This document shows, one piece after another, positions 45,090-64,000 of a stretch of DNA of 64,000 nucleotides. The translations under genes and the position numbers were made by a program. This DNA comes from Chondrocystis sp. NIES-4102 (GTDB lineage: Bacteria; Cyanobacteriota; Cyanobacteriia; Cyanobacteriales; Xenococcaceae): NCBI GenBank assembly GCA_002368355.1, contig AP018281.1, positions 930,001 to 994,000 of the forward strand, given 5' to 3'. Position 1 is the stretch's first letter, and every line of letters begins with the position of its first letter. Below the pieces are notes generated by a model, which was not told the DNA's origin, ran no database searches, and was given only the letters and a program-made list of their open reading frames with translations.

Positions 45090-45173
45090 ATTGGGTTTAA
45101 TGGCAATCATTTATTTTACGCTTTAAAACCATTAAATTAGTAAGTACAGTTTATCAGATAAGGATCATCCGAT

Positions 45174-46453: not shown

Positions 46454-49400
46454 ATGAATAAAATTATCAATAAATATACATCAGTAATCCAGCTATTGAG
46501 CGATCGCGCAGTCAAACAACCTAACGCTACTGCTTTTACCTTTTTAGAAGATGGAGAAAACAGAGAAACGACAGTTACATATCAACAGTTAGATCTGCGT
46601 AGTCGGCAAATTGCAACAAAACTACAAGCCCTAGGGTTAGAGGGAGAAAGAGCCTTATTACTTTATCCTTCAGGGTTAGATTATTTAGCAGCCTTTTTTG
46701 GTTGTTTATACGCAGGAGTAATAGCTGTTCCTGCCTATCCGCCTCAAAATTCTCGTAAAACTCCCAGAATTAAAGCAATTATAGAGGATTCCCAAAGTGC
46801 GCTCGCCCTAACTACCCAGGCACTATTACCAAAGATGCAACCTTTACTAGAGGGTTTACAGTGGCTAGCGACGGATGATTTAACGGGTATTGATGGTAAT
46901 TGGCGAAAACCTGTTGTAGATAGAGAGACAATTGCTTTTCTACAATATACATCGGGTTCAACTGGCACACCTAAAGGGGTGATGGTAACTCACGGGAATC
47001 TACTGCACAATGGGGCTATGACTTATCGTTGGATGAAACATTCCCCTCAAAGTAAGTTTATCTCTTGGTTGCCGATTTATCATGACATGGGTTTAGTGGG
47101 AGGAATTATACAACCTCTTTATGGTGGTTTTCCTTGTGTTTTGATGTCGCCAACGGCTTTTTTACAACGCCCCTATCGTTGGTTACAAGCTATTTCTCGT
47201 TACGGTGGTACTACTAGCGGTGCGCCTAATTTTGCTTACGATTTATGTGTGCAAAAGATTACAGATGAACAAAAGGCAACTCTCGATCTTAGTAGTTGGC
47301 AGGTGGCGTTTAATGGGGCTGAACCTATTCGTTATGAGACTTTAGAGGGTTTTACTCAGGCTTTTGCTAAGTGTGGTTTTCGGCGCGAGGCTTTTTATCC
47401 TTGTTACGGGATGGCAGAGGCGACTTTGTTGGTGGCTGGAGGTGATCAGGAAACTGAGTATGAATTTAAGCGAGTAGATAAATTGGCTTTGGCTGAAAAT
47501 CGAATTGTAGCAGCTTCAGGGGAATCTGACAGTCAGGTTTTAGTAGGTTGTGGTAGGAGTATTGGTGATCAGGAGATTATTATTGTTAATCCTAAAACTT
47601 TAATTGGTTGTGAAGATAATCAGGTTGGGGAGATTTGGGTAAGAGGGGAGAGTGTTGCTAAGGGTTATTGGCAGAGGGTGGAAGAGACGCAAGCAACCTT
47701 TCACGCCAAGGGCAGCGATGGGGAGTATTTACGTACTGGTGATTTGGGTTTTTTGGATGAAGCAGGGGAGTTATTTATTACTGGTAGGCTCAAGGATTTG
47801 ATTGTTATTCGGGGGCGCAATCTTTATCCGCAAGATATTGAGTTGACGGCGCAAAGGAGTCATTGGGCTTTACGTTTGGATAGTAATGCTGCTTTTACGC
47901 AAGAGGTGGGGAATGAGGAAAGGTTAGTAGTGGTAGTTGAGTTGGAGTTTCGGGTAAAACCTGATTTTGAAGAGGTAATTGTTGCTATTCGTCAGGGGGT
48001 AACGGAGGTACACGAAGTTGAAGTTTATGGGGTGGTTTTGATTAAGCCTGGGAGTATTCCCAAAACTTCTAGTGGTAAGATTCAGCGTGGGGAAACTCGC
48101 AAGCGGTTTATTGAGGGGAAATTAGATGTAGTTGCCAGTAGTGTTATAGAGCCTCAATTTAATGATCGAATTGTTGAATTGACGAGGGAAAAACTGTTAC
48201 AGTATCCGCCAAAGGAAGTTCAGTTAGTTTTAGAAAGTTATTTGCATTCTCATCTGGCTCGCCTTTTACAAAGCTCGGATCAAAGTATTGAGTTAGATAG
48301 ATCTTTGACTGCTTTGGGGATGGATTCGATAAAAGTATTTGAATTAAAAAATCAATTAGAAGCGGATTTAGGTGTGGATATTGCGATCGCTGATTTGTTT
48401 TCGGAATTAACTTTGCGATCGCTCGTATCTCAGATCTTGGCTCAAAAGGTTACTGAATCGATATCTCTTAAACCAGTTATTAGTAGTAGTAATATTCATC
48501 CTGTTTCTTTTGCTCAAGCTAGACTTTGGTTTTTAGATCGTCTGCAACCTGGTAATGTTGCTTATAATATTTCCTTTGCCCTAGAAATTGAGGGAAAATT
48601 AGATGTAGCTCGTTTAGGTAGTTGTATTAATCTGGTTATCTCCAGACACGAAATTCTGAGAACTTCTTTTACTATAGTTGAGGGTAAACCAGTACAGGTA
48701 ATTCATCCACAGTTGCAAGTAAGTTTATCGGTAGTGGATGTATTAGAATCAGAAGCTCAAGGAATTACTACCCAAAAGCATCAATATCCTTTTGATCTGA
48801 CTCAATTACCCCTATTAAGACTGTCTTTACTTAAATTGCGATCGCAACACCATATATTATTGTTGACGATGCACCATATTATTGCTGATGGTTTATCTGC
48901 AGAGGTATTTGTAAGTGAAGTTGCTCAGTTGTATCGAGGTGTAAGGCAAGAGGAATTAACTATACAGTATAAGGATGTAGTCTATTGGCAACAGCAATTA
49001 AAACGTGAAGATATATTAATTGATTATTGGCAACGACAGCTAAAGGGCGCACCACCCCTATTACAATTACCTACAGATCAACCTCGACCAGCAGTACAAA
49101 ATTATCAAGGTTGCAGTCAGTCGTGGGAAATATCTAGTAGTTTAACCCAACAGTTGCGAACTTTGGCGCAAAATCAAGGGGTGACTTTATTTATGTTGTT
49201 ACTCGCAGCATTTAAGACGTTACTCTATCGCTATACTGGAGAAGAAGATTTAGTAGTAGGTTCACCTATTGCTAATCGCAACCATAAGCAATTAAAGGGT
49301 TTAATCGGCTTTTTTGTTAATACTGTAGTCTTACGCAGTCAGATAACAGGTAATTTAGGTTTTTGCGAGTTTTTATCTCAAATACGCCAGGTAGCCAGGG

Positions 49401-51685
49401 AAGCTTACGCCCATCAAGATTTACCCTTTGATCAGGTGGTAGAAGTCTTACAACCTACAAGAGACTTGAGTTATACGCCCCTGTTTCAGGTGATGTTTAG
49501 TTTACAAGATGCTGTTAATTTAGCAACCATTCCTGGCTTGAGTTTAAAGGAATTTAAAGTAGATCCTAAAATAGCTCAATTTGATTTGACTCTTAGTATT
49601 GAAAATCGGGAAAAACAGCTTGTTGCTACTTTTGAATATAACAGCAATTTATTTGATGATCACACAATTACTAGAATGTTGGATCATTATCAGAATTTAT
49701 TAACAGGGATTATTATTAATCCTAATGCTCAAATTTCTGAGTTACCTTTATTATCCCAGGCAGAGAAACAACAATTATTAGTTGATTGGAATCCTAATTT
49801 AATTAATAATACTTCCCTTTCACTTGTGGAAATATTTCAAGATCAAGTAAAGAAAAATCCTGAAGCTATAGCCCTAGTTTGTGATCATCAACAATTAACT
49901 TATCAAGAATTAAATCAACAAGCTAATCAATTGGCAAGTTATTTAAGGGAAATTGGGGTGAAACCTGAAGTATTAGTTGGGGTTTATTTAGAACGTTCCC
50001 TTGCTGTTTTTATAGCTATTTTGGCAATTATTAAAGCAGGTGGTGCTTATTTACCCCTAGATCCCAAATATCCGCCAGTTAGAATTGCTTGGATGTTGGA
50101 AGATGCCCAACCTTTAGTAATTTTAGCGACACAAAATCTTAAAGCAGCCCTACCAGTTACCACAGCTAAGGTTATTTATTTAGATACTATTGGGGATAAT
50201 TTGGAGCAAAAAAGTAAAGAAAATTTACCCATTCAAACAATACAAAATAATGCTTTATATACAATTTATACATCAGGTTCTACAGGCAAACCTAAAGGAG
50301 TTGTATGTACTTATGGCGGTTTAGTTAATAGTTATTTGGCTTGGCAGCAGGGTAATTTATTACCCCAAGGAGATAATAATTGTTATCTACAAATGGCAAG
50401 TTTTTCCTTTGATGTTTTTACTGGGGATTTAATTAAAGCTCTAGGTTCTGGGTCTAAATTGGTTATTTGTCCGCAACAATTACTTTTAGAACCTCAAAAG
50501 TTATATCAATTTATGGTGCAAGAAAAGATAACTTGTGCTGATTTTGTACCTGCGGTATTAATTAATTTGCTTGACTATTTGGAGACAAGTAAGCTGAATT
50601 TACATTTTATGAAATTAATAATTGTCGGTTCAGATAGTTGGTATGTTAGAGATTATCAGCGAGTTAAAAGGTTAGCTGGTTTAACTACTAAAGTAATTAA
50701 TGCTTATGGAGTGAGTGAAGCAACTATTGATAGTAGTTTTTTTGCAGCAGAAGAATTAAATTTAGCTAAAGAACAGCTTGTCCCTATAGGTCGTCCTTTT
50801 GCTAACACTCAAGTTTATTTATTAGATAATAATTTACAACCAGTACCGATTGGGGTTTGGGGTGAAATTTATCTTGGTGGTAGTAGTTTGGCAAGAGGAT
50901 ATTTAAATCAGCCTCAGTTAACGGCAGAAAGATTTATTAATAATCCTTTTATCAGTAAGTCCCTACTTTATAAGACAGGAGATCAAGCTCGTTATCTTGC
51001 TGATGGAAATTTACAATTTTTAGCCAGAACTGATAATCAAGTAAAAATTCGTGGTTTTAGGATTGAAATTGCGGAAATTGAGATAGTAATTAGGCAGCAT
51101 CCAGGAGTAAGGCAAGGGGTAGTTATTGTTAAAGAGGATATTAAGGGAAATAAATATTTGGTGGCTTTTATAGTAGTAAAGGAAACTGCAATAAATACTG
51201 CCTTGGTAATAGAAGAAGTGAAAAAATACCTCAAGCAAAAACTACCAGACTATCTTATACCCGTTGCTTGGGAAGTAATAGCAGAAATACCTATAACAGT
51301 TAATGGCAAGATAGATCGGCTGAGTTTAAGGGATAAGAAAACTTCTATGACTGTAGCCATTTCAGCACCCAATAAGCAGGAAAGAATAATTTTAGAAATT
51401 TGGCAAACACTTCTACAAAGAGAGAATATTACGGTTAATGATAACTTTTTTGATGTTGGTGGACATTCCCTACTGCTTGCCCAACTACAAGCAAAACTAG
51501 AACAATCTTTGGCAATAAAAATAGCTATTACTGATTTATTTAAATATCCTACTGTTAGTTCCTTGGCTAACTATTTAACAGGAGAAATAAAATTACCAAC
51601 TAATAAAATAATAAGCGATCGCGTCGCTAAACAAAAAGCAGCTATAGCCCGCCAAAAGCAATTAAAAGGAGCAAGAAAAATATGA
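46454..51685 (+). CDS. FAAL-ACP-C-A-PCP nonribosomal peptide synthetase loading protein
   Basis: 1743 residues. Order: fatty-acyl-AMP ligase (about 10-585; YTSGSTGTPKGVMVTHGN, WLPIYHDMGLVGGI, CYGMAEATLLVAGG), ACP with Ser in LGMDSIKVFEL (about 625), condensation domain (about 676-1115; MHHIIADG at about 807), adenylation domain (about 1130-1640; YTSGSTGKPKG, RPFANTQVYLL, YKTGDQARYL) and PCP with Ser in FFDVGGHSLL (about 1672). Substrate-pocket residues by motif alignment are D, V, G, D, I, G, A, I, D, close to the ornithine code DVGEIGSIDK, so a basic amino acid is likely. It should load a fatty acid and amide-link it to this residue. Stop overlaps the PKS start by four bases. Confidence 0.93.
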   Translation: MNKIINKYTSVIQLLSDRAVKQPNATAFTFLEDGENRETTVTYQQLDLRSRQIATKLQALGLEGERALLLYPSGLDYLAAFFGCLYAGVIAVPAYPPQNSRKTPRIKAIIEDSQSALALTTQALLPKMQPLLEGLQWLATDDLTGIDGNWRKPVVDRETIAFLQYTSGSTGTPKGVMVTHGNLLHNGAMTYRWMKHSPQSKFISWLPIYHDMGLVGGIIQPLYGGFPCVLMSPTAFLQRPYRWLQAISRYGGTTSGAPNFAYDLCVQKITDEQKATLDLSSWQVAFNGAEPIRYETLEGFTQAFAKCGFRREAFYPCYGMAEATLLVAGGDQETEYEFKRVDKLALAENRIVAASGESDSQVLVGCGRSIGDQEIIIVNPKTLIGCEDNQVGEIWVRGESVAKGYWQRVEETQATFHAKGSDGEYLRTGDLGFLDEAGELFITGRLKDLIVIRGRNLYPQDIELTAQRSHWALRLDSNAAFTQEVGNEERLVVVVELEFRVKPDFEEVIVAIRQGVTEVHEVEVYGVVLIKPGSIPKTSSGKIQRGETRKRFIEGKLDVVASSVIEPQFNDRIVELTREKLLQYPPKEVQLVLESYLHSHLARLLQSSDQSIELDRSLTALGMDSIKVFELKNQLEADLGVDIAIADLFSELTLRSLVSQILAQKVTESISLKPVISSSNIHPVSFAQARLWFLDRLQPGNVAYNISFALEIEGKLDVARLGSCINLVISRHEILRTSFTIVEGKPVQVIHPQLQVSLSVVDVLESEAQGITTQKHQYPFDLTQLPLLRLSLLKLRSQHHILLLTMHHIIADGLSAEVFVSEVAQLYRGVRQEELTIQYKDVVYWQQQLKREDILIDYWQRQLKGAPPLLQLPTDQPRPAVQNYQGCSQSWEISSSLTQQLRTLAQNQGVTLFMLLLAAFKTLLYRYTGEEDLVVGSPIANRNHKQLKGLIGFFVNTVVLRSQITGNLGFCEFLSQIRQVAREAYAHQDLPFDQVVEVLQPTRDLSYTPLFQVMFSLQDAVNLATIPGLSLKEFKVDPKIAQFDLTLSIENREKQLVATFEYNSNLFDDHTITRMLDHYQNLLTGIIINPNAQISELPLLSQAEKQQLLVDWNPNLINNTSLSLVEIFQDQVKKNPEAIALVCDHQQLTYQELNQQANQLASYLREIGVKPEVLVGVYLERSLAVFIAILAIIKAGGAYLPLDPKYPPVRIAWMLEDAQPLVILATQNLKAALPVTTAKVIYLDTIGDNLEQKSKENLPIQTIQNNALYTIYTSGSTGKPKGVVCTYGGLVNSYLAWQQGNLLPQGDNNCYLQMASFSFDVFTGDLIKALGSGSKLVICPQQLLLEPQKLYQFMVQEKITCADFVPAVLINLLDYLETSKLNLHFMKLIIVGSDSWYVRDYQRVKRLAGLTTKVINAYGVSEATIDSSFFAAEELNLAKEQLVPIGRPFANTQVYLLDNNLQPVPIGVWGEIYLGGSSLARGYLNQPQLTAERFINNPFISKSLLYKTGDQARYLADGNLQFLARTDNQVKIRGFRIEIAEIEIVIRQHPGVRQGVVIVKEDIKGNKYLVAFIVVKETAINTALVIEEVKKYLKQKLPDYLIPVAWEVIAEIPITVNGKIDRLSLRDKKTSMTVAISAPNKQERIILEIWQTLLQRENITVNDNFFDVGGHSLLLAQLQAKLEQSLAIKIAITDLFKYPTVSSLANYLTGEIKLPTNKIISDRVAKQKAAIARQKQLKGARKI

Positions 51686-54600
51686 ACAATCTAACTAATT
51701 TAAATCTGGAAGATGCCATTGCCATCATCGGTATGGATGGTCGTTTTCCTGGGGCAAAAAATATTACTGAGTTTTGGGATAATCTTAAACATGGTCGTGA
51801 ATCAATTACTCATTTAAGCGAGCAGGAATTATTACATAGTGGGGTAGATAAAAAAACAATTAATAACCCAAACTATGTAAAGGCAGGCGCATTTCTAGAC
51901 GATATAGATCGCTTTGATGCTAGCTTTTTTGGCTATAATCCTCAAACCGCTTCCTCACTCGATCCACAACATCGTTTATTTCTAGAATCTGCTTATAATG
52001 CTTTAGAAAATGCTGGTTATAATCCCGATAACTACCCTGGGAAAATTGGAATTTTTGCAGGAGTTGGTTGGAATAATTATTTACTATCTAATCTCAAGGG
52101 CGATGAGGATTTCTGGCAAACAGCCTTGGGTTATCAAACAGTAATAGGTAACGATAAAGATTTTCTCACTACTCGTATTTCCTATCTCTTAAATCTCAAA
52201 GGCATTAGTTTAGATATCCAAACCGCTTGTTCTACTTCCTTGGTGGCTACCGCTATGGGTTGTCAAAGTCTACTTACCTATCAATCTGATATGGTTTTAG
52301 CAGGAGGGGTGAGTATTGCTAGTCTTAAAAAAATAGGCTATCTCTATCAAACAGGGGGAATTCTCTCTCCTGATGGACATTGTCGCGCTTTTGATGCCCA
52401 AGCACAAGGAACTGTACCTGGTAGTGGTGTTGGGGTGGTTGTCTTAAAACGTCTGGAAGATGCGATCGCTGATGGGGATTGCATCCATGCTATTATCCGT
52501 GCTTCGGCAATTAATAATGATGGTGGTGATAAGGTTGGGTACACAGCCCCAAGCGTTGCAGGGCAAGCAGAGGTTATCGCCTCCGCTTTGGCTTTAGCTG
52601 CCGTTGCCCCCGAAACTATTACTTATATTGAAACCCACGGCACAGGTACGGTTTTAGGTGATCCTATTGAAATTGCAGCCCTACATCAGGTTTTTGGCGA
52701 TAATGGCAAAATTGCCCTAGGTTCGGTTAAAACTAATATTGGGCATTTGGACGCAGCAGCAGGGATTGCAGGGCTAATTAAAACGGTTTTGGCACTCAAA
52801 CACCAGCAGATTCCCCCAAGCTTACATTTTCAACATCCTAACCCCAAAATTGATTTTGCTAATAGTCCTTTTTACGTTAATACGCAGTTGCAAGCATGGG
52901 CGAAGGGTGAATATCCCAGACGGGCAGGTGTTAGTTCTTTTGGGATTGGGGGTACAAATGTACATCTGGTATTGGAAGAAGCACCCTTAACTAGGCAGCA
53001 GCTAGCCACACGACAGGAGGAATTATTAGTAATCTCGGCAAAAACAGAAACTGCTTTGGAAACAGCAACCACTAATTTAGCTGCATATCTATCCCAGCAC
53101 CCAGAATTGGATTTGGCAGATGTGGCTTATACTCTACAGGTGGGGCGCAAGGAATATAATTATCGTCGCTTGATTGTAGGTAAAGATCTTCAGGAAATGG
53201 CGATCGCTCTTGCCAACCTAGATCCACAACGGGTTTTAACTCATTGTACCTCCCAGCAGCGTCAGGGAATAACTTTTATGTTCCCAGGTCAAGGTTCACA
53301 ATATTTTCAGATGGGTAAGGAATTATACGCCACTCAACCTGTATTCCGTCAGTGTATCGATCGCTGTGGGGAAATTCTCCAAGCTTATTTAGATCTCCCT
53401 TTATTGGAAGTTTTGGGGTTTGTCTCTGCCACATCCCCTAATTATATAAATCAAACTCAATACGCTCAACCAGCCATCTTTACTATTGAATATGCCTTGG
53501 CGCAATTATGGATCTCTTGGGGCGTTAAACCACAAGCTGCTATTGGGCATAGTATTGGCGAATACGTAGCTGCTACCATTGCTGGGGTTTTTTCCCTCGA
53601 AACTGCCCTATATATAGTCGCCCAACGGGGTAAGTTAGTGGCTCAAATGCCCACAGGTTCAATGTTGGCTGTATCTTTATCCCCAACAGCAGTAAAACAA
53701 ATACTCGATGATCGTTTATCCCTCGCTGCTATTAATGCCCCCAACCTCTGTGTTATTGCAGGTGAGGATCAGGCGATCGCACTTTGCGCCAAACAATTAC
53801 AACAATGTCGTCATCTCCATACCTCCCATGCCTTCCATTCCCCAATGATGGATGGGGCGATCGCACCCTTGGCAGAAATCTTAGCCCAGGTTGAATTACA
53901 TCCTCCCCAAATGCCCTTTATCTCTTGTGTTACGGGGACTTGGATCACCTCAGCCCAGGCAACAGATCCCGATTATTGGGCAAAACATCTACGTCAAACC
54001 GTTTGCTTTGCTCATGGAGTTACAGAATTACTACAAGATCCTGACTGTATTTTATTAGAAGTGGGTGCGGGTAGAACTTTATCTACCTTCGTCCGACATA
54101 ACCCGAATCAAGCTACAGGGCAAATTGTCTTATCTTCTTTACCCCATCCCCAAGAAGCAATTGGCGATATGGCTTTTATCCTTAATATGTTGGGGAGATT
54201 ATGGTTAGCAGGAGTAGCAATAGATTGGGTTAATTTTTCAGCCCCCCAAGCCCACGCTAGAATACCTCTGCCTACCTATCCTTTTGAGCGTCAGCGTTAT
54301 TGGTTATCGAAGGAAAATGTAGTTAAGAAAAAAGATCTTGCTGATTGGTTTTATCTTCCAGTTTGGCAAGCATTACCCTTATTTCCAACCCCTAAGCAAC
54401 CCTTAGATCCCTATTTGGTTTTTGCCGATCAATCTTCCTTATCTAAAGAAATACTTCAACAGTTGGGCAACAAGGCAATATCTGTATATCAGGGAGAAGA
54501 ATATAGCTTTAATAACCATCAATATACAATCGATCCTGAAAACCCAGCCGACTATCAAACACTATTGGGTGCGATCGCGAAGCGTAGCCCCGAAGGGCTA

Positions 54601-56058
54601 ATCGCCAATTTAGATAGTCTCCCAACTAAAATTATCTATTTATGGAGTGTGGATTATCAAGGAGAGCAAAATTTTTGGCATCTGATTTATCTCGCCCAAG
54701 CTATCCCACAACCACCCAAGCACCAGATAGAAATAATTGTTGTTACTGATAACTTCTACGACGTGATCGGCAATGAAACCCTATCTTATACCCCAGCCAC
54801 CCTCTTAGGTGCGATCGTTGTTATTCCTCAAGAGTATAATTACCTCAGTTGTCGTCAGATAGATCTAAATCAAGCTGAATCTATTACTTTAGAACAACTC
54901 ATCACCGAATTTACGACAGATACAACCGCGCAATTTATCGCCTATCGCCATCGTCGTCGTTGGGTACAAAGTTTTGAACCTGTTTCCCTCAATACCCCGT
55001 CAAACTCCAAATTAAGACAAGCAGGTGTTTATCTTATTACTGGGGGAATGGGTGGTATCGGTTTAACTTTAGCTAAATATTTGGCTCGTCGGGTACAAGC
55101 TAAACTTATTTTGATCGGGCGATCGCCATTATCTTCTACCCAGAAGCTACAGGATTTAGAGGCTTTGGGGGCTGAGGTTTTAACCTTGAGTGCCGATGTC
55201 TGCAACTATGATTCCATGCAGCAAGCCATAGCTCAAACTGTATCCCGTTTTGGTACGATTAATGGTGTGATTCATTGTGCTGGTATCCCTGGGGGTGGCA
55301 TGATTGATTTGAAAACCCCAGATCTGGCTTATCGGGTTTTTGCTCCTAAAGTTACAGGTACATTAGTTCTAAAAGAGGTATTATCAGGTTTTAATTTAGA
55401 TTTTTTGCTGCTTTGCTCTTCCCTAACTTCGATTGTGGGGGGGTTAGGACAAGCTGACTATTGTGGTGCTAATGCCTTTTTGGATGCTTTTGCTCGTAGT
55501 AGGGATCATCATTACCCAACCATAGCTATTAATTGGGATACTTGGCAGCAAGTGGGGATGGCTTACAATACTAATGTTCCTCAACAGCATGGTTTATTAC
55601 CAGATGAAGCAGTAGAGGTGTTTGAGCGCGTGATTAATAGTGGGTTATCTCAAGTTATTGTTTCCACTCAAGATTTAACCAGTGCAATCGCTCAATCTAA
55701 TGATTTCTTGGCTACCTATCAAAATCAAACCGTTTCTACTTCAGATCAAAGTGTTAATGATTATGTTGCTCCTAGTAACGAAATTCAATTAACTATTGCA
55801 AAAATATGGCAAGAAGTGATAGGGTTAGAAAAGATTGGCATCTATGACAACTTCTTTGACTTAGGTGGGCATTCTCTACTAGCTGTACAGGTTACTTCTC
55901 GCCTTCGAGAAACCTTTAATTTAGATTTACCCCTACGCACAGTATTGTTGGAAACTCCTACTATTGCTCAATTAGCTGAGGTAATAGAAGCTAAAATACT
56001 AGCGGAAATAGAAAGTCTTTCTGCTGAGGAAATCACTCGACAATTGGCACAAGAGTAA
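51682..56058 (+). CDS. Type I PKS module KS-AT-KR-ACP
   Basis: 1458 residues. KS (10-430): catalytic Cys183 in QTACSTSLV, HGTGT (about 319) and KTNIGHLDAAAG (about 355). AT (530-830): GQGSQ, active Ser in GHSIGEY and HAFHSP at about 717, the motif of malonyl-CoA-specific ATs. KR (930-1290): NADPH site TGGMGGIG at about 1120, SSLTSIVGG and DYCGANAF with Ser and Tyr. ACP Ser in DLGGHSLLAV (about 1397). No DH, ER or methyltransferase is seen. Downstream of an amino-acid-loading module this should give a beta-hydroxy, gamma-amino (statine-like) extension. Confidence 0.93.
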   Translation: MNNLTNLNLEDAIAIIGMDGRFPGAKNITEFWDNLKHGRESITHLSEQELLHSGVDKKTINNPNYVKAGAFLDDIDRFDASFFGYNPQTASSLDPQHRLFLESAYNALENAGYNPDNYPGKIGIFAGVGWNNYLLSNLKGDEDFWQTALGYQTVIGNDKDFLTTRISYLLNLKGISLDIQTACSTSLVATAMGCQSLLTYQSDMVLAGGVSIASLKKIGYLYQTGGILSPDGHCRAFDAQAQGTVPGSGVGVVVLKRLEDAIADGDCIHAIIRASAINNDGGDKVGYTAPSVAGQAEVIASALALAAVAPETITYIETHGTGTVLGDPIEIAALHQVFGDNGKIALGSVKTNIGHLDAAAGIAGLIKTVLALKHQQIPPSLHFQHPNPKIDFANSPFYVNTQLQAWAKGEYPRRAGVSSFGIGGTNVHLVLEEAPLTRQQLATRQEELLVISAKTETALETATTNLAAYLSQHPELDLADVAYTLQVGRKEYNYRRLIVGKDLQEMAIALANLDPQRVLTHCTSQQRQGITFMFPGQGSQYFQMGKELYATQPVFRQCIDRCGEILQAYLDLPLLEVLGFVSATSPNYINQTQYAQPAIFTIEYALAQLWISWGVKPQAAIGHSIGEYVAATIAGVFSLETALYIVAQRGKLVAQMPTGSMLAVSLSPTAVKQILDDRLSLAAINAPNLCVIAGEDQAIALCAKQLQQCRHLHTSHAFHSPMMDGAIAPLAEILAQVELHPPQMPFISCVTGTWITSAQATDPDYWAKHLRQTVCFAHGVTELLQDPDCILLEVGAGRTLSTFVRHNPNQATGQIVLSSLPHPQEAIGDMAFILNMLGRLWLAGVAIDWVNFSAPQAHARIPLPTYPFERQRYWLSKENVVKKKDLADWFYLPVWQALPLFPTPKQPLDPYLVFADQSSLSKEILQQLGNKAISVYQGEEYSFNNHQYTIDPENPADYQTLLGAIAKRSPEGLIANLDSLPTKIIYLWSVDYQGEQNFWHLIYLAQAIPQPPKHQIEIIVVTDNFYDVIGNETLSYTPATLLGAIVVIPQEYNYLSCRQIDLNQAESITLEQLITEFTTDTTAQFIAYRHRRRWVQSFEPVSLNTPSNSKLRQAGVYLITGGMGGIGLTLAKYLARRVQAKLILIGRSPLSSTQKLQDLEALGAEVLTLSADVCNYDSMQQAIAQTVSRFGTINGVIHCAGIPGGGMIDLKTPDLAYRVFAPKVTGTLVLKEVLSGFNLDFLLLCSSLTSIVGGLGQADYCGANAFLDAFARSRDHHYPTIAINWDTWQQVGMAYNTNVPQQHGLLPDEAVEVFERVINSGLSQVIVSTQDLTSAIAQSNDFLATYQNQTVSTSDQSVNDYVAPSNEIQLTIAKIWQEVIGLEKIGIYDNFFDLGGHSLLAVQVTSRLRETFNLDLPLRTVLLETPTIAQLAEVIEAKILAEIESLSAEEITRQLAQE
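54571..54605. repeat. HIP1-linked palindromic element inside the PKS gene
   Basis: GCGAT (54571) and ATCGC (54601-54605) flank a perfect stem AGCCC-CGAA-GGGCT (54586-54599). The element is in frame, encodes AIAKRSPEGLIA and lies in the linker before the KR catalytic part. Similar gcgaagcg/gtagcccc words occur in cyanobacterial intergenic repeats. Confidence 0.6.
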
Positions 56059-56112
56059 TTTATTTATTTTGATATTTATTGCAAAAGATTCTTAACTATC
56101 CTAAATATTGCT

Positions 56113-57177
56113 ATGGAATTTAGCCTACTATACTTTTCTGGCGATGGTTCGACAACCAGAAGGGATAAATACAATCTACTATTGGAGACAGCCAAATACG
56201 CAGATCGTCATGGTTTTAAGGCGATATGGACTCCTGAGCGTCATTTTCATCCTTTTGGGGGGCTATACCCCAACCCCTCAGTGATAGCTGCTGCCTTGGC
56301 AACTATTACCGAAAATATCCAATTGCGATCGGGAAGTGTGGTATTACCTTTACAAAATCCTGTGAGGGTTGCGGAAGAATGGGCAGTAGTAGATAATTTA
56401 TCTCATGGTAGGGTGGGTATTTCCTTTGCTTCGGGTTGGCACGCGGATGATTTTTTACTGCAACCCCATAATTACCCTAAGCGTAAACAAGCGATGTGGC
56501 AAGGGATAGAGGTTTTTCAACAGTTATGGCGTGGCGAAGCAGTAGAATTTTTAGGTGGTACACAAAAACCAGTTGCAATTCAAACTTTTCCTCGACCAAT
56601 TCAGCGACAAGTACCTATATGGATTACTTGTGGGACGGATGAAACTTTTAGGCGTGCAGGGGAAATTGGGGCAAATGTTTTAACTTCTTTGTTGTATGAA
56701 ACTTGCGATAATTTAGCAAGGCAAATAGCCATCTATCGAGATTCTTTAGCAGAACATGGTTATCACCCTAGGGAGGGAAAAGTAGCTTTAATGCTGCATA
56801 CTTTTATTGGGGATGAGCAAGAATTGATTAGAAGGCAAGTTAAAGAACCATTTTGTAATTATATAAAAACCCATTTTGGTTTAGTAGAAAGGTTGGCAAG
56901 GCAAATAGATTTTGAGGTAGATCCTGAAAGTTTTAATGAGAGCGATCGCGCCAGTTTATTTGATTTTGCTTTTGAACGTTATTTGAGGGGGCGAGTGATG
57001 ATTGGCACGCCAGAAACTTGTAATCAGACGATTGCATCTATGGAAAAGATTGGGGTAGATGAAATTGCTTGTTTGATTGATTTTGGCTTGGATTTTGAGT
57101 TAGTTATGGCAAGTTTGGTCAAGCTGGAAAAGATTAAAGCAGCATGGAGTGGGTATTCTGCTTTGAGTTATTTTTAA
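56113..57177 (+). CDS. MupA/Atu3640-type luciferase-like flavin monooxygenase
   Basis: 354 residues. Bacterial-luciferase (TIM-barrel) fold: FSLLYFSGDG at the start, HGFKAIWTPERHFHPFGGLYPNPSV, LRSGSVVLPLQNPVRVAEEWAVVDNLSHGRVGISFASGW and VPIWITCGTDETFRRAGEIGANVLTSLL. This exact wording marks the subgroup that sits within NRPS/PKS assembly lines, where it uses FMNH2 and O2 to hydroxylate a carrier-bound intermediate. Here it is a separate protein between the PKS and the sulfotransferase genes. Its substrate is probably the statine-like intermediate or the acyl chain (inference). 54 bases after the PKS. Confidence 0.9.
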   Translation: MEFSLLYFSGDGSTTRRDKYNLLLETAKYADRHGFKAIWTPERHFHPFGGLYPNPSVIAAALATITENIQLRSGSVVLPLQNPVRVAEEWAVVDNLSHGRVGISFASGWHADDFLLQPHNYPKRKQAMWQGIEVFQQLWRGEAVEFLGGTQKPVAIQTFPRPIQRQVPIWITCGTDETFRRAGEIGANVLTSLLYETCDNLARQIAIYRDSLAEHGYHPREGKVALMLHTFIGDEQELIRRQVKEPFCNYIKTHFGLVERLARQIDFEVDPESFNESDRASLFDFAFERYLRGRVMIGTPETCNQTIASMEKIGVDEIACLIDFGLDFELVMASLVKLEKIKAAWSGYSALSYF

Positions 57178-57187
57178 GGGAATTAGA

Positions 57188-58099
57188 ATGAGTAATATCT
57201 CCACATTTCAAGAAGTTTTAGCAACAGCCTCACCTGAAACTCAGGAATTTTATCAGTATTTACTGGAGCAAGATTGTTCTTTAAGTAAAAAAGAAAGGAT
57301 TGTTTTAGGGGTAAAAGGTAATTATTATGCCTGGAAAAATAGAGCCTATTGGCAAGGGTTTGATCAGGTAAATAGTTACTGTAGTTTTATTGGTTGTGGT
57401 CGCACGGGTCATAGTTTAATTGGTTCAGTAATTGATGCCCATCCAGATATGGTGATGTCTGATGAATTAAACGTGATGACTTTAATTGAAAATGGGTTTA
57501 GTAAGAGACAAATTTATGCCTTAATTATTGCCCAATCCCAAAAGCAAGCGAAAACTGGGCGAGAAGTTACAGGATATTCTTATTTAGTACCTAATCAATG
57601 GCAAGGTAGGTTTAGGAAGTTAAAAGTAATTGGGGATAAATTTTCTACTACTACTACTGCGATTATGCAGCAAAAACCTCACCTTTTAAAGCAGTTAAAT
57701 CGGCAATTTCAAACTGATATAAAGTTTATTCATGTAACTAGAAATCCCTTTGATATTATTAAAACTTTTACTACAAGAGAAGGGATAGAATTAAAAACTG
57801 CTATTCAACTATACTATTTAGCTGCATCTGCGATCGCTGAAGTAAAAGAGCAGATTAATCATGATAATTTATTGGAATTTTCCCACGAGGCTTTTATTGC
57901 TCATCCCTCGGCATATCTTACTATGATTTGTGATTTTTTAGGCGTAGAAAGTACCCCTGAGTATTTAGCAGCTTGCAGCAGTATTGTATATCAAACCCCC
58001 CATAAAAGTCGTTATGAAATTGATTGGGATATGGCATCAATTGATTTAATTGATCAGATGATTAATAAATTTTCCTTTCTTAAAAACTATTCCTTTTAA
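57188..58099 (+). CDS. Sulfotransferase family protein
   Basis: 303 residues. The PAPS 5'-phosphosulfate loop is visible as FIGCGRTGHSLIGSVIDAHPD and the 3'-phosphate motif as FIHVTRNPFDIIKTF, both typical of the sulfotransferase_3 type fold. No signal peptide or transmembrane helix. It should transfer sulfate from PAPS to a hydroxyl of a small molecule, and because it is enclosed by cluster genes (10 bases after the monooxygenase, 2 before the NRPS) the product is likely a sulfated lipopeptide. Alternatively sulfation of a beta-hydroxyl could be followed by elimination, as known in curacin-type loading, although no SGNH/TE partner is seen. Confidence 0.85.
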   Translation: MSNISTFQEVLATASPETQEFYQYLLEQDCSLSKKERIVLGVKGNYYAWKNRAYWQGFDQVNSYCSFIGCGRTGHSLIGSVIDAHPDMVMSDELNVMTLIENGFSKRQIYALIIAQSQKQAKTGREVTGYSYLVPNQWQGRFRKLKVIGDKFSTTTTAIMQQKPHLLKQLNRQFQTDIKFIHVTRNPFDIIKTFTTREGIELKTAIQLYYLAASAIAEVKEQINHDNLLEFSHEAFIAHPSAYLTMICDFLGVESTPEYLAACSSIVYQTPHKSRYEIDWDMASIDLIDQMINKFSFLKNYSF

Positions 58100-58101
58100 A
58101 G

Positions 58102-61100
58102 ATGAGTAATATATCAGAAAGAATTGCAGCACTCTCTTTAGAACAAAGAAAATTATTAGAGTTGCGTTTAAAGCAAAAACAAACTTTATCTATTCCTGCA
58201 GCAACGGCATCGGCTACTTTTCCTTTATCTTCGATGCAGCAGGGTTTATGGTTGGCAAATCAATTATACCCAGACTTGCCTTTATATAATGAGTCGAGTT
58301 TATTTAAGCTTACAGGGATAGTTAAGATTGACACTATTGTTAAAAGTATTAATAAAATAGTTGCTCGTCATGATATTTTACGTACAACTTTTGAAGTAGA
58401 TGGGGAAAAAGTAACCCAGGTTATTAAACCGCATTTAGATATTTCTCTGACTATAATAGATAATATAGAATCGAACTCAACAGAAATTCAAAACTCGATT
58501 AATTATTATGCAGCTTTACCTTTTGATTTAAAAGAATTACCTCTATTAAGATGTATTATTTTTAAGTTATCTCAACAGGAACACTTACTCTTAATTACCA
58601 TGCACCACCTAATATCTGATGGTTGGTCTTGGGGGGTTTTTTGTCAGGAATTGGCAGCTTTCTATCAAGGTTTAAGTTTACCTGATTTAGCAATTCAATA
58701 TGGTAATTTTACCCTATGGCAGCAACAAAATTTACCCAATAAAATTACATCTCAGTTAAACTATTGGCTACAAAAGTTAAAAGCTGCCCCAACTATTTTA
58801 GAATTAGCAACAGATTATCTTCGTCCTCTTAATCCTAGTTTTAAGGGGAAGCGAGAAACCTTTATTATTTCTAAATCCCTAACAAAACAGTTAAAAGTAC
58901 TAGGCAAAGAAGCCCAGGTAACAACTTTTATGTTATTATTGGCTGCCTTTAAAACTTTACTTTATCGTTATACTCAACAAACAGATATTATAGTTGGTAC
59001 TCCCATTGCTAACCGCGATCGCTTGGAATTTGAAGGTTTAATTGGCTGTTTTATTAATACTTTGGTTTTAAGAAGTGATTTGGGTGGTGATCCGAGTTTT
59101 CGCGACTTATTACAACAAATAAAAACTACTACCCTCGAAGCTTATCAACATCAGGATCTACCTTTAGAGGAATTATTAAAAGCCTTAAAAATAGAGCGAT
59201 TACCAGGTATTAATCCTTTATTTCAAGTGATGTTTGTTTATCAGCCAGCACCTTTACTTGATTTTACTTTACCAGATTTAACTATTACTTCTTTACCCCT
59301 AGATAATGGTATTGCTAAATTCGATCTCACTCTCTATATTGAAGATACTCAAGATGAATTACTGGGTTTTTTAGAATATAGCAGCGATTTATTTACTGCA
59401 GAAACCATTACTCGGATGTTGGCAAACTTCCAAACTTTGTTAACAGCAATTGTTAGTCATCCTGATGATCATATTTCTTCCCTCCCTCTATTAACCCCCG
59501 CAGAAAAAAACAAACTTCTGGTTGAATGGAATAATACCCAAGCAAGTTATCCCTTAGATATTTGTCTACATCAATTATTTGAGCAACAAGTAACTAAAAC
59601 TCCCGATGCTGTCGCCGTAATATTTGAAACCCAAATTACCTATACTCAATTAAATCAGCAAGCAAATAAATTAGCCCACTACCTACAACACTTGGGTGTA
59701 GAAAAAGATGTTTTAGTCGGTATTTGTTTAGAGCGATCGCTTTATATGGTGGTGGGACTTTTAGCTATCCTCAAAGCAGGTGGTGCTTATGTACCTATCG
59801 ATCCTAGTTATCCTAAAACACGAAGAGACTTGATTATCCTTGATGCAGGGTTGCAGATAATTCTGACGCAACAACATCTACGCTCAAGTTTATCAAATCA
59901 TACAGCACAATTAATTTGTTTAGATACAGAGTGGGACAAGGATCATCCTTTATCGAACCAAGACAGCCCGATCAGTAATTCCACCCCAGACTCCCTGGCT
60001 TATGTGATCTATACCTCTGGATCTACAGGTACACCTAAAGGGGCGATGAATACCCATCGAGGTATTTGTAACCGTCTTCAATGGATGCAGGAAACCTATC
60101 AGTTAACCCCCGACGATGCAGTATTGCAGAAAACCCCTTTTAGTTTTGATGTTTCAGTTTGGGAATTCTTCTGGACTTTGATTACGGGCGCACGTTTAAT
60201 TATTGCTGTGCCTGGAGGACATTTAGATAGCAGGTATCTAGTCAAGACAATATCCCATCATAACATCACTATTATACATTTTGTGCCTTCAATGTTGCAA
60301 GTCTTTTTAGAAGATCCAGAAATAGCAACTTTAACTTCCTTAAGACAGGTTATTTGTAGCGGAGAAGCCTTACCAGTCAGTTTACAAACCAAATTCTTTA
60401 CCCAACTGTCAGCCAAACTAGATAACCTTTATGGCCCAACTGAAGCAGCGATCGATGTTACCTATTGGCAATGTCAACCAGATAGTAATTTAACCACAGT
60501 CCCTATTGGTCGTCCCATTGCGAATACACAAATATATATCCTAGATAAACACCTGCAACCTTTACCCATTGGCGTAACTGGGGAATTATATATAGCTGGG
60601 GTGGGTGTCGCTCGTGGATATTTAAATCGTCCTCAATTAAGTTGCGAGAAATTTATTCAAGTCCCAGGTAAATTTGTTTCCCCCTTATATAAAACAGGAG
60701 ATTTAGCCCGATACCTTAGCGATGGCAATATTGAGTATCGAGGGCGTATAGATAACCAGATAAAGCTACGAGGCTTTCGCATTGAGTTGGGGGAAATAGA
60801 AGCGGTACTTAGTAATTATCCTGGGGTAAGAGAAGCGGTGGTGATAGTTAAGGAATTATCCCAATCATTAATTGCCTATCTTGTACTCGCTCACCCTAAG
60901 ACAACAATTGAAAAGATACGTTGCCAGCTTAAACAGCAGCTACCAGAATACATGATTCCTAATGCTTTTGTGGTATTAGAGGCTTTACCTTTAACTAGTA
61001 ATGGGAAGGTTAACCGTCTGGCGTTAGGGGATCTAGATTTAGAAGTAAGTAGTTATTTAGCACCTAGTACACCTGTACAAGAAATCCTCACAGGAATTTG

Positions 61101-62652
61101 GAGTGTAATTTTAAATGTAGAGGGAGTAGGCATTGAAGATAACTTTTTTGAATTGGGAGGGCATTCTTTATTAGCAACTCAAGTAATTTCTCAAGTTAGG
61201 CAGATTTGGGGTGTGGAGATAGCTTTAAAAGAGATCTTTAGCGCGCCTACAATTGCGCAGTTTTCTTTATTAATTGAAAATGCTAGAAATAGTTGGCAAC
61301 ACTTACCTATAAAAGCCTCTAATAGGGATAGAAATATACCCCTTTCCTTTGCACAACAAAGATTATGGTTTCTCCAACAATTAGAGCCTGATTCTATTGC
61401 GTATAATGGCTCAAATTTAATTTTAATCACAGGGCTACTCAATGTGGAGGCTCTGGAAAAAAGTATTAATGAAATTGCCAGAAGACATGAAATATTGCGG
61501 ACAAGTTTTATCTTTAGAGATAATCAAGCTGTGCAGGAAATAGCGGAGGAATTATTCATCCCGTTAGAAATTATCGATCTAGAGAATTTATCTAAGATAG
61601 AGCAACAAACAGCAATAAAAAGAATAATAGCAGCCAGTAGTAATCAGCCATTTAAACTTACCCAAGCCCCCTTATTTAGAGTAAGTTTAATTAAGTTAAA
61701 GTCAGACAAACAACTTTTATTATTAACCATACATCATATAATTTCTGATGCTTGGTCGGCAGGTATATTTATTAAAGAAATATCCGCCCTGTATGCAGCT
61801 TTTTCTACAGGTAAACAATCACCATTACCAGAATTACCAATTCAATATGCCGACTTTGCCCTATGGCAGAGAGAATGGTTACAAGGGGAATTTTTAGAGC
61901 GTCAATTAAGTTATTGGCAACAACAATTAGAAAACGCTAATAGTAATTTAAAACTACCTAGAGATATATCCTGTAAACAAGTTAGTGCTATAGGTAAGCA
62001 ACATCATTTCTCCCTACCGAGTGAATTATCTCAACAATTAACTAGTTTTAGTCAACAACAAGGAGTGACATTATTTATGACTTTGTTGACGATTTATAAT
62101 ACCTTACTTTATAGCTATAACCAACAGGAAGACATCTCAATAGGTTCTCCTATTGCTAATCGTAACCGCAGCGAAATAGAAGGTTTAATTGGCTTTTTTG
62201 TTAACACTTTAGTTTTACGGACAAATTTAGCTAATAATCCAACTTTTACACAATTACTACAAAGAGTAAGAACCACTGCTTTAGATGCTTATGCCCATCA
62301 AGATGTTCCTTTTGAAAAGATAGTAGCAGCTTTAAAACCAGTAAGAGATAAGGGTAAGCGATCGCCTTTATTTCAGGTTTGGTTCGTATTACAAAATGCC
62401 CCGACACCCACACTTCAATTAGCAGGATTGGATTTAAGTTTAATTGATGTGGAAACGGGGATAGTTCGTCATGATTTGAAGTTGGATTTAACTAAAACTG
62501 AGTCGGGTATTCAGGGTTTTTTTGAATATAAACAAGATTTGTTTTCAGAAGAAGTTATTGCCCACCTCACCCAGCGTTTTATCACAATTAGTAGTTTGAT
62601 TGTTAGAGATTCTGAAATCAAGTTAAAGGAATTAGTAGAATGTTTGATATAA
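58102..62652 (+). CDS. NRPS C-A-PCP-C
   Basis: 1516 residues. A short N-terminal helix (ERIAALSLEQRKLLELRL) resembles a docking helix. C1 (about 38-465; MHHLISDG), A (about 485-990; YTSGSTGTPKGA, FDVSVWEFFW, NLYGPTEAAIDVTYW), PCP (FFELGGHSLLATQ, Ser about 1021) and a C-terminal C domain (about 1070-1500; HHIISDA, so the last Gly is Ala). Pocket residues by alignment are D, V, W, H, I, S, L, I, D, which is the serine code (DVWHLSLIDK) with one conservative change. The terminal C domain has no downstream A/PCP on the same protein, and the next NRPS protein also begins with a C domain, so this one may be an interface or non-condensing domain. Confidence 0.92.
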   Translation: MSNISERIAALSLEQRKLLELRLKQKQTLSIPAATASATFPLSSMQQGLWLANQLYPDLPLYNESSLFKLTGIVKIDTIVKSINKIVARHDILRTTFEVDGEKVTQVIKPHLDISLTIIDNIESNSTEIQNSINYYAALPFDLKELPLLRCIIFKLSQQEHLLLITMHHLISDGWSWGVFCQELAAFYQGLSLPDLAIQYGNFTLWQQQNLPNKITSQLNYWLQKLKAAPTILELATDYLRPLNPSFKGKRETFIISKSLTKQLKVLGKEAQVTTFMLLLAAFKTLLYRYTQQTDIIVGTPIANRDRLEFEGLIGCFINTLVLRSDLGGDPSFRDLLQQIKTTTLEAYQHQDLPLEELLKALKIERLPGINPLFQVMFVYQPAPLLDFTLPDLTITSLPLDNGIAKFDLTLYIEDTQDELLGFLEYSSDLFTAETITRMLANFQTLLTAIVSHPDDHISSLPLLTPAEKNKLLVEWNNTQASYPLDICLHQLFEQQVTKTPDAVAVIFETQITYTQLNQQANKLAHYLQHLGVEKDVLVGICLERSLYMVVGLLAILKAGGAYVPIDPSYPKTRRDLIILDAGLQIILTQQHLRSSLSNHTAQLICLDTEWDKDHPLSNQDSPISNSTPDSLAYVIYTSGSTGTPKGAMNTHRGICNRLQWMQETYQLTPDDAVLQKTPFSFDVSVWEFFWTLITGARLIIAVPGGHLDSRYLVKTISHHNITIIHFVPSMLQVFLEDPEIATLTSLRQVICSGEALPVSLQTKFFTQLSAKLDNLYGPTEAAIDVTYWQCQPDSNLTTVPIGRPIANTQIYILDKHLQPLPIGVTGELYIAGVGVARGYLNRPQLSCEKFIQVPGKFVSPLYKTGDLARYLSDGNIEYRGRIDNQIKLRGFRIELGEIEAVLSNYPGVREAVVIVKELSQSLIAYLVLAHPKTTIEKIRCQLKQQLPEYMIPNAFVVLEALPLTSNGKVNRLALGDLDLEVSSYLAPSTPVQEILTGIWSVILNVEGVGIEDNFFELGGHSLLATQVISQVRQIWGVEIALKEIFSAPTIAQFSLLIENARNSWQHLPIKASNRDRNIPLSFAQQRLWFLQQLEPDSIAYNGSNLILITGLLNVEALEKSINEIARRHEILRTSFIFRDNQAVQEIAEELFIPLEIIDLENLSKIEQQTAIKRIIAASSNQPFKLTQAPLFRVSLIKLKSDKQLLLLTIHHIISDAWSAGIFIKEISALYAAFSTGKQSPLPELPIQYADFALWQREWLQGEFLERQLSYWQQQLENANSNLKLPRDISCKQVSAIGKQHHFSLPSELSQQLTSFSQQQGVTLFMTLLTIYNTLLYSYNQQEDISIGSPIANRNRSEIEGLIGFFVNTLVLRTNLANNPTFTQLLQRVRTTALDAYAHQDVPFEKIVAALKPVRDKGKRSPLFQVWFVLQNAPTPTLQLAGLDLSLIDVETGIVRHDLKLDLTKTESGIQGFFEYKQDLFSEEVIAHLTQRFITISSLIVRDSEIKLKELVECLI

Positions 62653-63632
62653 AAAGTATTAAAAGGAAATCAATAGTAATTGAGGGAGAGGATTTAATTA
62701 AGACGGAGTTGCTTAATCCCCACAAGCGATCGCCTTTAGTAATTAAGCCAAATATGGCTGGGATAAATTTAATTAATTGGGCAACTAATTATCGGGATTG
62801 GATTGATAAGAATTTATTGGAATATGGTGCTTTATTATTGCGTGATTTTGCCATAAAACCAACAACATTTGAACCATTTATAAGAGCGATCGCAGGGGAA
62901 TTATTGGATTATTCTTATCGTTCTACTCCCCGTACTTTAGTTAACGGTAAAATATATACTTCTACGGAATATCCGCCGCAACAGTTTATTCCTCTACACA
63001 ATGAAATGTCCTACGCTCGTTATTGGGCTAGTAAAATTTGGTTTTATTGTGTTCAACCAGCAAAAGAAGGTGGCGAAACACCAATTGCTGATAGTCGTCA
63101 AATATTTAAGCTTATTCCCACTAAAATTAGGGAAAAGTTTATTGCTAAACAAGTTATGTATGTCCGTAATTATGGGCAGGGTTTAGATTTAGATTGGCAA
63201 ACAGTCTTTCAAACAGATAATAAGCAGGTGGTAGAAGATTATTGTGATCAAGTAGGAATTGATTGGCAATGGTTGAATGAAAATCACCTGAGAACTCGTC
63301 AGGTTTGTCCTGCTATTACTACCCATCCTATAACTAAAGAGGTTGTGTGGTTTAATCAAGCTCATTTATTTCATGTTTCCATGTTACCTAATAATCTTCG
63401 TGAATCCTTATTATCTTTACTTCCTTTAGATGATTTACCTCGTAATAGTTTTTATGGCGATGGTACGGTAATAGAAGATGGGGTGATTGAGGAAATAAAT
63501 AATATTTATCTACAGGAAATGTTTACTTTTCCTTGGCAAGCAGGGGATATTTTAATGTTGGATAATCTCCTATTTGCCCACGGGAGAAATCCCTTTTTGG
63601 GAACAAGAAAAGTTTTAGTGGGAATGGCTTAA
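62640..63632 (+). CDS. SyrP/AsnO-like Fe(II)/2-oxoglutarate-dependent hydroxylase
   Basis: 330 residues of the TauD/clavaminate-synthase-like family. Iron ligands: H120 and E122 in PLHNEMSY (the H-x-E variant normal for AsnO/SyrP and clavaminate synthase) and distal H314 in NLLFAHGRNPF; the 2-oxoglutarate-binding Arg is probably R323 in GTRKVLVGMA. CVQPAKEGGETPIADSRQIF is typical of hydroxylases that act on PCP-bound or free amino acids in NRPS pathways. Its start overlaps the NRPS stop by 13 bases. It should hydroxylate the serine or the next residue at the beta carbon, most likely after recruitment by the preceding C-like domain (inference). Confidence 0.9.
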   Translation: MFDIKSIKRKSIVIEGEDLIKTELLNPHKRSPLVIKPNMAGINLINWATNYRDWIDKNLLEYGALLLRDFAIKPTTFEPFIRAIAGELLDYSYRSTPRTLVNGKIYTSTEYPPQQFIPLHNEMSYARYWASKIWFYCVQPAKEGGETPIADSRQIFKLIPTKIREKFIAKQVMYVRNYGQGLDLDWQTVFQTDNKQVVEDYCDQVGIDWQWLNENHLRTRQVCPAITTHPITKEVVWFNQAHLFHVSMLPNNLRESLLSLLPLDDLPRNSFYGDGTVIEDGVIEEINNIYLQEMFTFPWQAGDILMLDNLLFAHGRNPFLGTRKVLVGMA

Positions 63633-63640
63633 TATTGAAG

Positions 63641-64000
63641 ATGGAAAAATTAACTAATAACGGTTTTGCAATATCTCCTCAACAGCAGAATATTTGGTTA
63701 TCCTCTACGCCAGATATCAGGCAAAAATTGCAAGTAACAGGCACAATTTTACTCTCAGGGGAATTAGATCTAGTAACTTTAGAAAAGGTTATTAAGCAGG
63801 TAATTAATAAACATGAAATATTGCGGACTAAATTATCCGCGATCGCAGCTTTGGATATTCCGATGCAAGTTATTGATCACCATGATAATTTTTCCCTAGA
63901 TATTGGGGAAATAGATGATCAAGGGGAATTTAATTTAGAAGAAGGTATTTTTTATGCCCGTTTAATCAAGATAAAACCCAAGTCAAATATTCTGGCGATC
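63641..64000 (+). CDS. NRPS, start of a condensation domain (truncated by the window end)
   Basis: 120 codons from ATG 63641, eight bases after the hydroxylase stop, open to the last base. It begins NNGFAISPQQQNIWL, the first condensation motif, and continues GELDLVTLEKVIKQVINKHEILRTKL, the second. Active-site HHxxxDG lies beyond the window. It is the next NRPS of the cluster; number of modules unknown. Confidence 0.88.
   Translation, partial: MEKLTNNGFAISPQQQNIWLSSTPDIRQKLQVTGTILLSGELDLVTLEKVIKQVINKHEILRTKLSAIAALDIPMQVIDHHDNFSLDIGEIDDQGEFNLEEGIFYARLIKIKPKSNILAI

Follow-up and report, generated by a model that had tools for sequence, protein, structure and literature searches.

What is made by the run of biosynthetic genes that begins at position 46454 of this stretch of Chondrocystis sp. 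NIES-4102 DNA and continues off its right-hand end? The stretch, hereafter the window, comprises 64,000 nucleotides (C1:930001-994000, where C1 is contig AP018281.1) of a genome of 5.0 Mb, and the genes form a mixed nonribosomal peptide synthetase (NRPS) and polyketide synthase (PKS) cluster headed by a fatty acyl-AMP ligase (FAAL). A sequence-only reading of the window had predicted a sulfated, multiply hydroxylated lipopeptide with a statine-like core. We consider it very probable that this is a cyanobacterial beta-hydroxyaspartate (beta-OH-Asp) siderophore cluster of the cyanochelin kind. The cluster type is one already known; the version found here and its probable finishing steps are read from the sequence. 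The gene and domain order given earlier for 46454-64000, all on the + strand, was reproduced by Pfam and NCBIfam searches, and the FAAL start and the two hydroxylases, a luciferase-like monooxygenase (LLM) and a TauD-family enzyme, were correctly recognized, as domains and motifs confirm. The kind of cluster was misjudged because the window ends in the middle of it: extension beyond the right border, as that reading had proposed, showed that the run continues unbroken through g7-g15 to C1:1016843 (window coordinate 86843). The whole cluster occupies C1 976454-1016843, about 40 kb, of which the window covers the first half; its genes there are nearly contiguous (intergenic gaps of -13 to +54 bp), and the best outside protein matches are cyanobacterial. 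The genes are as follows, in window coordinates, with condensation, adenylation, epimerization and reductive release domains abbreviated C, A, E and TD (domain assignment by Pfam/NCBIfam).

46454-51685, + strand: g1, FAAL-ACP-C-A-PCP (Pfam/NCBIfam)
51682-56058, + strand: g2, PKS module KS-AT-KR-ACP (Pfam/NCBIfam)
56113-57177, + strand: g3, MupA/Atu3671-type FMN luciferase-like monooxygenase (TIGR04020, 500 bits, cut-off 244)
57188-58099, + strand: g4, stand-alone sulfotransferase (PF13469, 41.4 bits, cut-off 27)
58102-62652, + strand: g5, NRPS C-A-PCP-C (Pfam/NCBIfam)
62640-63632, + strand: g6, TauD-family beta-hydroxylase (PF02668, 150 bits)
63635-68062, + strand: g7, degenerate C-A-PCP-E, its first 122 amino acids inside the window
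68065-71289: g8, C-A-PCP
71329-75963: g9, C-A-PCP-E
75963-80231: g10, C-A-PCP-TD
80138-81637: g11, class-III aminotransferase
81651-82454: g12, Cupin_8 oxygenase, JMJD5/FIH-like
82454-83434: g13, periplasmic iron-siderophore binding protein, FecB/FepB-like
83438-84751: g14, exporter of the major facilitator superfamily (MFS), EntS-like
84684-86843: g15, acylase of the penicillin-amidase/PvdQ family

The adjacent genes g6 and g7 carry the mark of a beta-OH-Asp siderophore, namely a stand-alone TauD hydroxylase (g6, labelled "SyrP-like" in the sequence-only reading) beside an Asp-specific module with a C-like domain that lacks HHxxxDG. At 63635 the sequence-only reading had seen the start of a C domain; a C-like domain is indeed there, weak as it is (135.8 bits), and since HHxxxDG is absent from the first 440 residues of g7 it is probably interface-type. 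Cyanobacterial TauD clades are named as markers of beta-OH-Asp siderophore clusters in metallophore mining, for which hydroxylase models called CyanoBH_Asp and IBH_Asp have been published (PMC12971057). The A-domain code of g7, DLTKIGHIGK, is one V/I swap away from DLTKIGHVGK, the code that cyanochelin B has in each of its two beta-OH-Asp modules; the structure of that compound, including those residues, was established by NMR and mass spectrometry (PMC12628792). In addition, the cluster is a FAAL-primed PKS/NRPS line with TD release, although here the FAAL is followed by a C domain and in cyanochelin B by a KS, and it contains genes for a siderophore-type binding protein and exporter (g13, g14). 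The TauD enzyme, degenerate C domain, Asp-type A domain and siderophore-type transport genes together give a cyanochelin/pyoverdine/myxochelin-like logic.

Several observations weigh against this assignment. The cluster contains no TonB receptor; a single TonB plug match was found in the genome, 1 Mb away (C1:2028946-2031477, or L138:16946-19477 in our extract), and a strong FecCD pair is likewise outside the cluster (C1:841710-843711). Only one Asp-type code was found among the six amino-acid A domains, not the two beta-OH-Asp residues of cyanochelin B, and with a single such site encoded, six-coordinate iron binding would need the alpha-hydroxy unit and/or the product of the Cupin_8 enzyme. 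A simple 19-base match for a Fur-box-like site upstream of g1 gave nothing above background. Finally, one genome of the same genus (G543) has FAAL, PKS, TauD and acylase genes in another layout, and no match to the LLM, Cupin_8 or sulfotransferase was found in that cluster.

Two other relatives bear on the missing receptor. Genomes G466 and G498, also of this genus, have g1-g3 and g5-g15, 14 genes in the same order at 53-85% identity; they differ in lacking the sulfotransferase and in the A codes of some modules. Behind the acylase in both lie an AraC-like regulator (by eye) and then a TonB receptor, and in a third genome, G074, a receptor adjoins the cluster upstream. The distant receptor of our genome is 72.2% and 74.9% identical to the cluster-adjoining receptors of G466 and G498, so it has probably moved away from the cluster here. 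A small NRPS lies near this distant receptor (half-size C, A, PCP, TE; L138:8650-12093, C1:2020650-2024093). Directly past the cluster our genome has pilin-like genes (window 86880-92048, two with N-terminal methylation motifs) at the position where G466 and G498 carry the regulator and receptor, and upstream of g1 (window 44412-45833) are, by eye, a C-terminal M20-type hydrolase fragment and a gene for a GntR-like regulator.

What might such a line assemble? By motif reading the active sites of g2 are intact (KS Cys, HGTGT, AT GHSxG with HAFH, KR Tyr; we take HAFH to indicate a malonyl-type AT), and the carrier Ser, the C-domain HHxxxD and the TauD HxE with its distal His are also present. 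The A codes other than that of g7 are DVGDIGAIDK in g1, DVWHISLIDK in g5, DVGEIGSIDK in g8, DAWQFGLIDK in g9 and DAEDIGTVVK in g10, which by the usual code tables are presumably basic (Orn/Lys/Arg-like), Ser, Orn-, Gln- and Lys-type, respectively; E domains are found in g7 and g9 (TIGR01720). From gene order, domains, motifs, codes and conservation we infer the following route. The FAAL would load a fatty acid and module 1 would amidate it onto a basic amino acid, after which g2 would add a C2 unit that KR and LLM oxygenase would leave as a dihydroxylated, statine-like unit. In cyanochelin B an alpha-oxygenated unit is found together with a monooxygenase in the PKS part (PMC12628792), and by analogy with that Ox enzyme g3 probably alpha-hydroxylates the PKS-extended unit. 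Ser would then be added by g5, whose last C domain probably serves the following Asp module, which lacks a functional C of its own; Asp would be loaded on g7, beta-hydroxylated by g6 and epimerized, and the chain would be extended by Orn-, D-Gln- and Lys-type residues. Reductive release by TD would yield an aldehyde, which the class-III aminotransferase g11 would convert to an amine in a myxochelin-B-like manner. The predicted product is thus fatty acyl-basic residue-(alpha,beta-dihydroxy C2 unit)-Ser-D-beta-OH-Asp-Orn-D-Gln-Lys, TD-released and aminated. The aminotransferase, which the sequence-only reading had declared lacking, is present 16 kb past the window edge. Of the remaining enzymes, g12 may hydroxylate the Gln residue, g4 would sulfate one hydroxyl, probably within the dihydroxylated unit, g14 would export the molecule and g15 would strip the fatty acid outside the cytoplasm; iron would be regained through the displaced TonB receptor 1 Mb away, the binding protein g13 and the distant FecCD permease.

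Does the fatty acid stay on the product? Gene g15 has a GSN motif and, by eye, a hydrophobic signal-like N-terminus, and the cluster combines an N-acyl amino acid start (FAAL-ACP-C-A-PCP) with an N-terminal nucleophile (Ntn) acylase in the pyoverdine-like way; in pyoverdine the acyl chain is taken off by PvdQ in the periplasm (PMC6206403). In a survey of 388 genomes of the order, a TauD match was found in 131 at E 1e-20 and an acylase in 140 at E 1e-60. Co-location was counted among the matches listed (TauD, 150 places in 92 genomes; acylase, 149 places in 138 genomes; 80 genomes common to both), and on this footing the acylase lies within 60 kb of TauD in 51 of the 53 genomes that have both on one contig. 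In other words, siderophore-type clusters of cyanobacteria that carry TauD often have a PvdQ-like acylase close by. Short contigs favour apparent nearness of the two genes, and on contigs known to exceed 1 Mb the nearness is still seen in 18 of 20 (hand count). The two exceptions to nearness are G099 and G143, and the distance in G099 is possibly short across the origin of its single-contig chromosome. A FAAL match lies no more than 80 kb from the acylase in all 51 genomes, and in each of the 13 FAAL regions that were read, chosen to span protein sizes, the FAAL is followed by a C domain, an amide-forming start for the fatty acid; in nine more (its own genome, G466, G498, G074, G441, G477, G627, G389 and G543) the alignment with g1 spans FAAL, C and A. 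The siderophore plasmid of Gloeothece citriformis PCC 7424 also carries an acylase.

An alternative is that g15 is a quorum-quenching acylase of N-acyl homoserine lactones (AHLs) that merely lies nearby, the final siderophore remaining lipidated and amphiphilic like the cyanochelins. The family does include AHL acylases, and PvdQ acts on both substrates (PMC6206403); moreover, cyanochelin B retains its chain (PMC12628792). Other facts speak against de-acylation from different directions. The NCBIfam PvdQ equivalog cut-off is far from reached by g15 (235.7 vs 950 bits), TauD and acylase are on different contigs in 27 of the 80 genomes that have both, and G481 and G557 have FAAL then C, with the FAAL near TauD, but no listed acylase. 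When FAAL was checked in nine genomes outside the 51, these two among them, no match was found in G487 and G515, none lay near TauD in G143, that of G546 was on another contig and that of G172 stood alone; the TauD of G463 is unplaced, and in G099 the FAAL is beside the acylase. The alternative is nonetheless doubtful in our view, given the nearness in 51 of 53 genomes and the uniform FAAL-to-C starters. Furthermore, no acylase match was found for cyanochelin B in AP017310 (1-60000 and 65000-98206), and its FAAL-to-KS start leaves no cleavable amide. By analogy, cyanobacteria may plausibly de-acylate such products in the manner of pyoverdine maturation. With a PvdQ-like acylase as part of the cluster, "lipopeptide" may describe the precursor only, the final product possibly being de-acylated. 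The literature searched, including word searches of PMC12628792, PMC11837247 and PMC12971057, contained no statement of an acylase with cyanobacterial siderophores, which is not proof of absence.

Sulfation, as the sequence-only reading had held, is probable: g4 matches PF13469 and has the motifs GRTGxSL and RNPxDxxxT, which we take to be those that bind the sulfate donor PAPS. A sulfotransferase is absent from every relative's cluster read, which makes the enzyme an optional addition to the cluster and not one of the parts that define it. A g4 match at E 1e-3 was found in 17 of 386 genomes of a phylum sample, with E <1e-60 in three only, this one included, and in 6 of 13 genomes of the genus, two besides this one strongly. 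The nearest relatives found are 39-43% identical and stand-alone. Those of G454 and G554 sit among glycosyltransferases and flippases (by eye, no family search), in what look like glycan loci; in the sulfotransferase neighbourhoods of G187 and G159 (55 and 20 kb) no other cluster protein was matched at E 1e-10, and a contig scan with the sulfotransferase gave no relative. In G466 the LLM and NRPS genes are separated by about 65 bp, leaving the slot between them empty, and in G498 this slot holds a 414-amino-acid GT1/UGT-like glycosyltransferase, of which G074 has a 42% relative between g1 and g2. The decoration slot thus looks exchangeable. It might be argued that g4 works like the sulfotransferases of olefin synthase (OLS) and curacin CurM and prepares the PKS beta-hydroxyl for elimination, so that a double bond and no sulfate remains; g4 does sit behind KS-AT-KR-ACP, and its best solved-structure matches are OLS/CurM-type sulfotransferases (4gox, E 2.6e-6, presumably the OLS enzyme; 4gbm, E 0.016). 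This is improbable, since no thioesterase follows the sulfotransferase as it does in OLS and curacin, the chain proceeding to C-A-PCP-C, since the nearest relatives stand alone, two of them in apparent glycan loci, and since a glycosyltransferase in the same slot of G498 fits a decorated hydroxyl. With a slot that looks exchangeable, we regard a sulfate that stays on its hydroxyl as more probable than elimination of the OLS type, despite the structure match. A literature search on sulfated siderophores listed one paper with "sulfonated siderophore", which is not proof of absence from print.

That the product is a sulfated, multiply hydroxylated bioactive lipopeptide which keeps its fatty acid and is no siderophore at all would suit the FAAL, hydroxylases and sulfotransferase and the want of a closely similar characterized cluster among those compared, but is very improbable in the face of an iron-siderophore binding protein and an EntS-like exporter encoded within this gene run, TonB receptors next to the clusters of G466 and G498 and upstream of that of G074, the Asp code of the cyanochelin B beta-OH-Asp modules, and the acylase.

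Within the siderophore assignment, the Cupin_8 enzyme g12 offers a further lead. It resembles JMJD5 and FIH, with HxD and the distal His invariant in 7 of 7 aligned sequences, and belongs to a tight clade (50-77% identity) found in 8 of the 388 order genomes, this one included; in all 7 genomes with both genes placed, the clade member lies 19-22 kb behind TauD. A contig scan with the Cupin_8 alignment returned seven named loci (five Nostoc, one Aliterella, one Chlorogloea). Thirteen carrier clusters were compared (the eight order genomes, PCC 7424, L140, L141, L144 and L145), and in ten of them (our own, G466, G498, G074, G308, G522, G636, L140, L141 and L144) the penultimate module has the Gln-type code DAWQFGLIDK, while the amino acid of the final module varies. 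In 10 clusters that lack Cupin_8, several of them cut by contig ends, the codes read did not include this one. The association is loosened by PCC 7424, where the penultimate code is DFWHFGQVDK despite Cupin_8, by Nostoc UCD121 (L145), where the module read in that position is Orn-like with Cupin_8 present, by G553 (= L142), whose contig is too short to show the code, and by the non-carriers themselves, some of whose codes were misaligned or missed in stretches cut short. Since Cupin_8 and the Gln module may be inherited as a block, that g12 may hydroxylate Gln is a lead, not a result. In three of the carriers (G308, G522 and G636; L112, L115 and L117/L118) TauD precedes a module coded DSALIAEVWK, not the Asp code; we take this code to be His-like, which suggests beta-OH-His there.

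Cyanobacterial iron scavengers shape access to iron in light-exposed communities, and few of their structures are known. The present cluster belongs to a mosaic family and is one that can be read well. It allows finishing steps to be predicted that are open to test, namely removal of the acyl chain, hydroxylation of Gln, either a sulfate or a sugar at one slot, and release as an amine; two of its leads, the acylase and the Cupin_8 enzyme, extend past this strain. Should acylases indeed take the fatty acid off these peptides, a screen of such strains for "lipopeptide" masses would overlook the actual siderophores. We tentatively extend this to a proposal that we think slightly more apt to fail than to hold in all its parts: that a large group of cyanobacterial beta-OH-Asp siderophores is pyoverdine-like, with a temporary fatty-acid anchor and an Ntn acylase in the cluster to remove it, Gln hydroxylation by Cupin_8 in a subgroup and an exchangeable slot carrying a sulfate here and a sugar in a sister strain, the product here being sulfated and de-acylated.

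How does the cluster compare with systems already described? As the sequence-only reading had anticipated, none of the characterized clusters compared proved closely similar, the proteins of cyanochelin B being 35-53% identical. That reading saw a likeness to microginin in the FAAL and the monooxygenase only; the logic is cyanochelin/pyoverdine/myxochelin-like instead. In microginin an aminotransferase-bearing PKS makes a beta-amino fatty acid; here the PKS is KS-AT-KR-ACP only and a gene of its own, following the TD module, encodes the aminotransferase, so that kinship was rejected. Salicylate-type clusters (Pseudanabaena ABRG5-3) were also set aside, as they share the PKS-LLM pair but have no match to g4, g6, g11, g12 or g15. 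PKS-KR and LLM also occur as a pair in further plasmid-borne clusters of cyanobacteria that contain siderophore genes (L012, L013, L014). As in myxochelin, a module with a Lys-type A domain and TD precedes a glutamate-semialdehyde (GSA)-aminomutase-like aminotransferase (MxcL in myxochelin); here the TD module ends a longer line, and it does not reach the NCBIfam MxcG cut-off (843 vs 2300 bits). Pyoverdine (PvdL acyl start, PvdQ) has in common the acyl-amide start module and the Ntn-type acylase with hydrophobic N-terminus, and differs in its chelators and in the chromophore genes, none of which were seen here. The siderophore-type cluster on plasmid pP742401 of PCC 7424 (NC_011738) has 44-58% identity (binding protein, 36%) and a like set of parts: a FAAL-ACP-C-A NRPS, TauD, A-PCP-E, C-A-PCP, C-A-PCP-E, C-A-PCP-TD, aminotransferase, Cupin_8, binding protein and acylase, with a TonB receptor as well. 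It differs in other residues and in having no match to the PKS module, LLM or sulfotransferase (L034). For cyanochelin B we used Leptolyngbya sp. NIES-3755 (AP017310), comparing regions 1-60000 and 65000-98206, where no match was found to the sulfotransferase, class-III aminotransferase, Cupin_8 enzyme or acylase present here. Our cluster has FAAL then C-A-PCP (an amide) ahead of the PKS, one Asp module in place of two and no cyclization module. Both clusters have a FAAL start, a PKS with KR and an alpha-hydroxylating monooxygenase, an epimerized Asp module with a stand-alone TauD hydroxylase, TD release, and binding protein and MFS genes; identities are 41-53% for g2, g3, g5-g10 and g14 and 35% for g13, the counterpart of g6 in the cyanochelin B cluster being the stand-alone hydroxylase BAU16062, at 53% identity.

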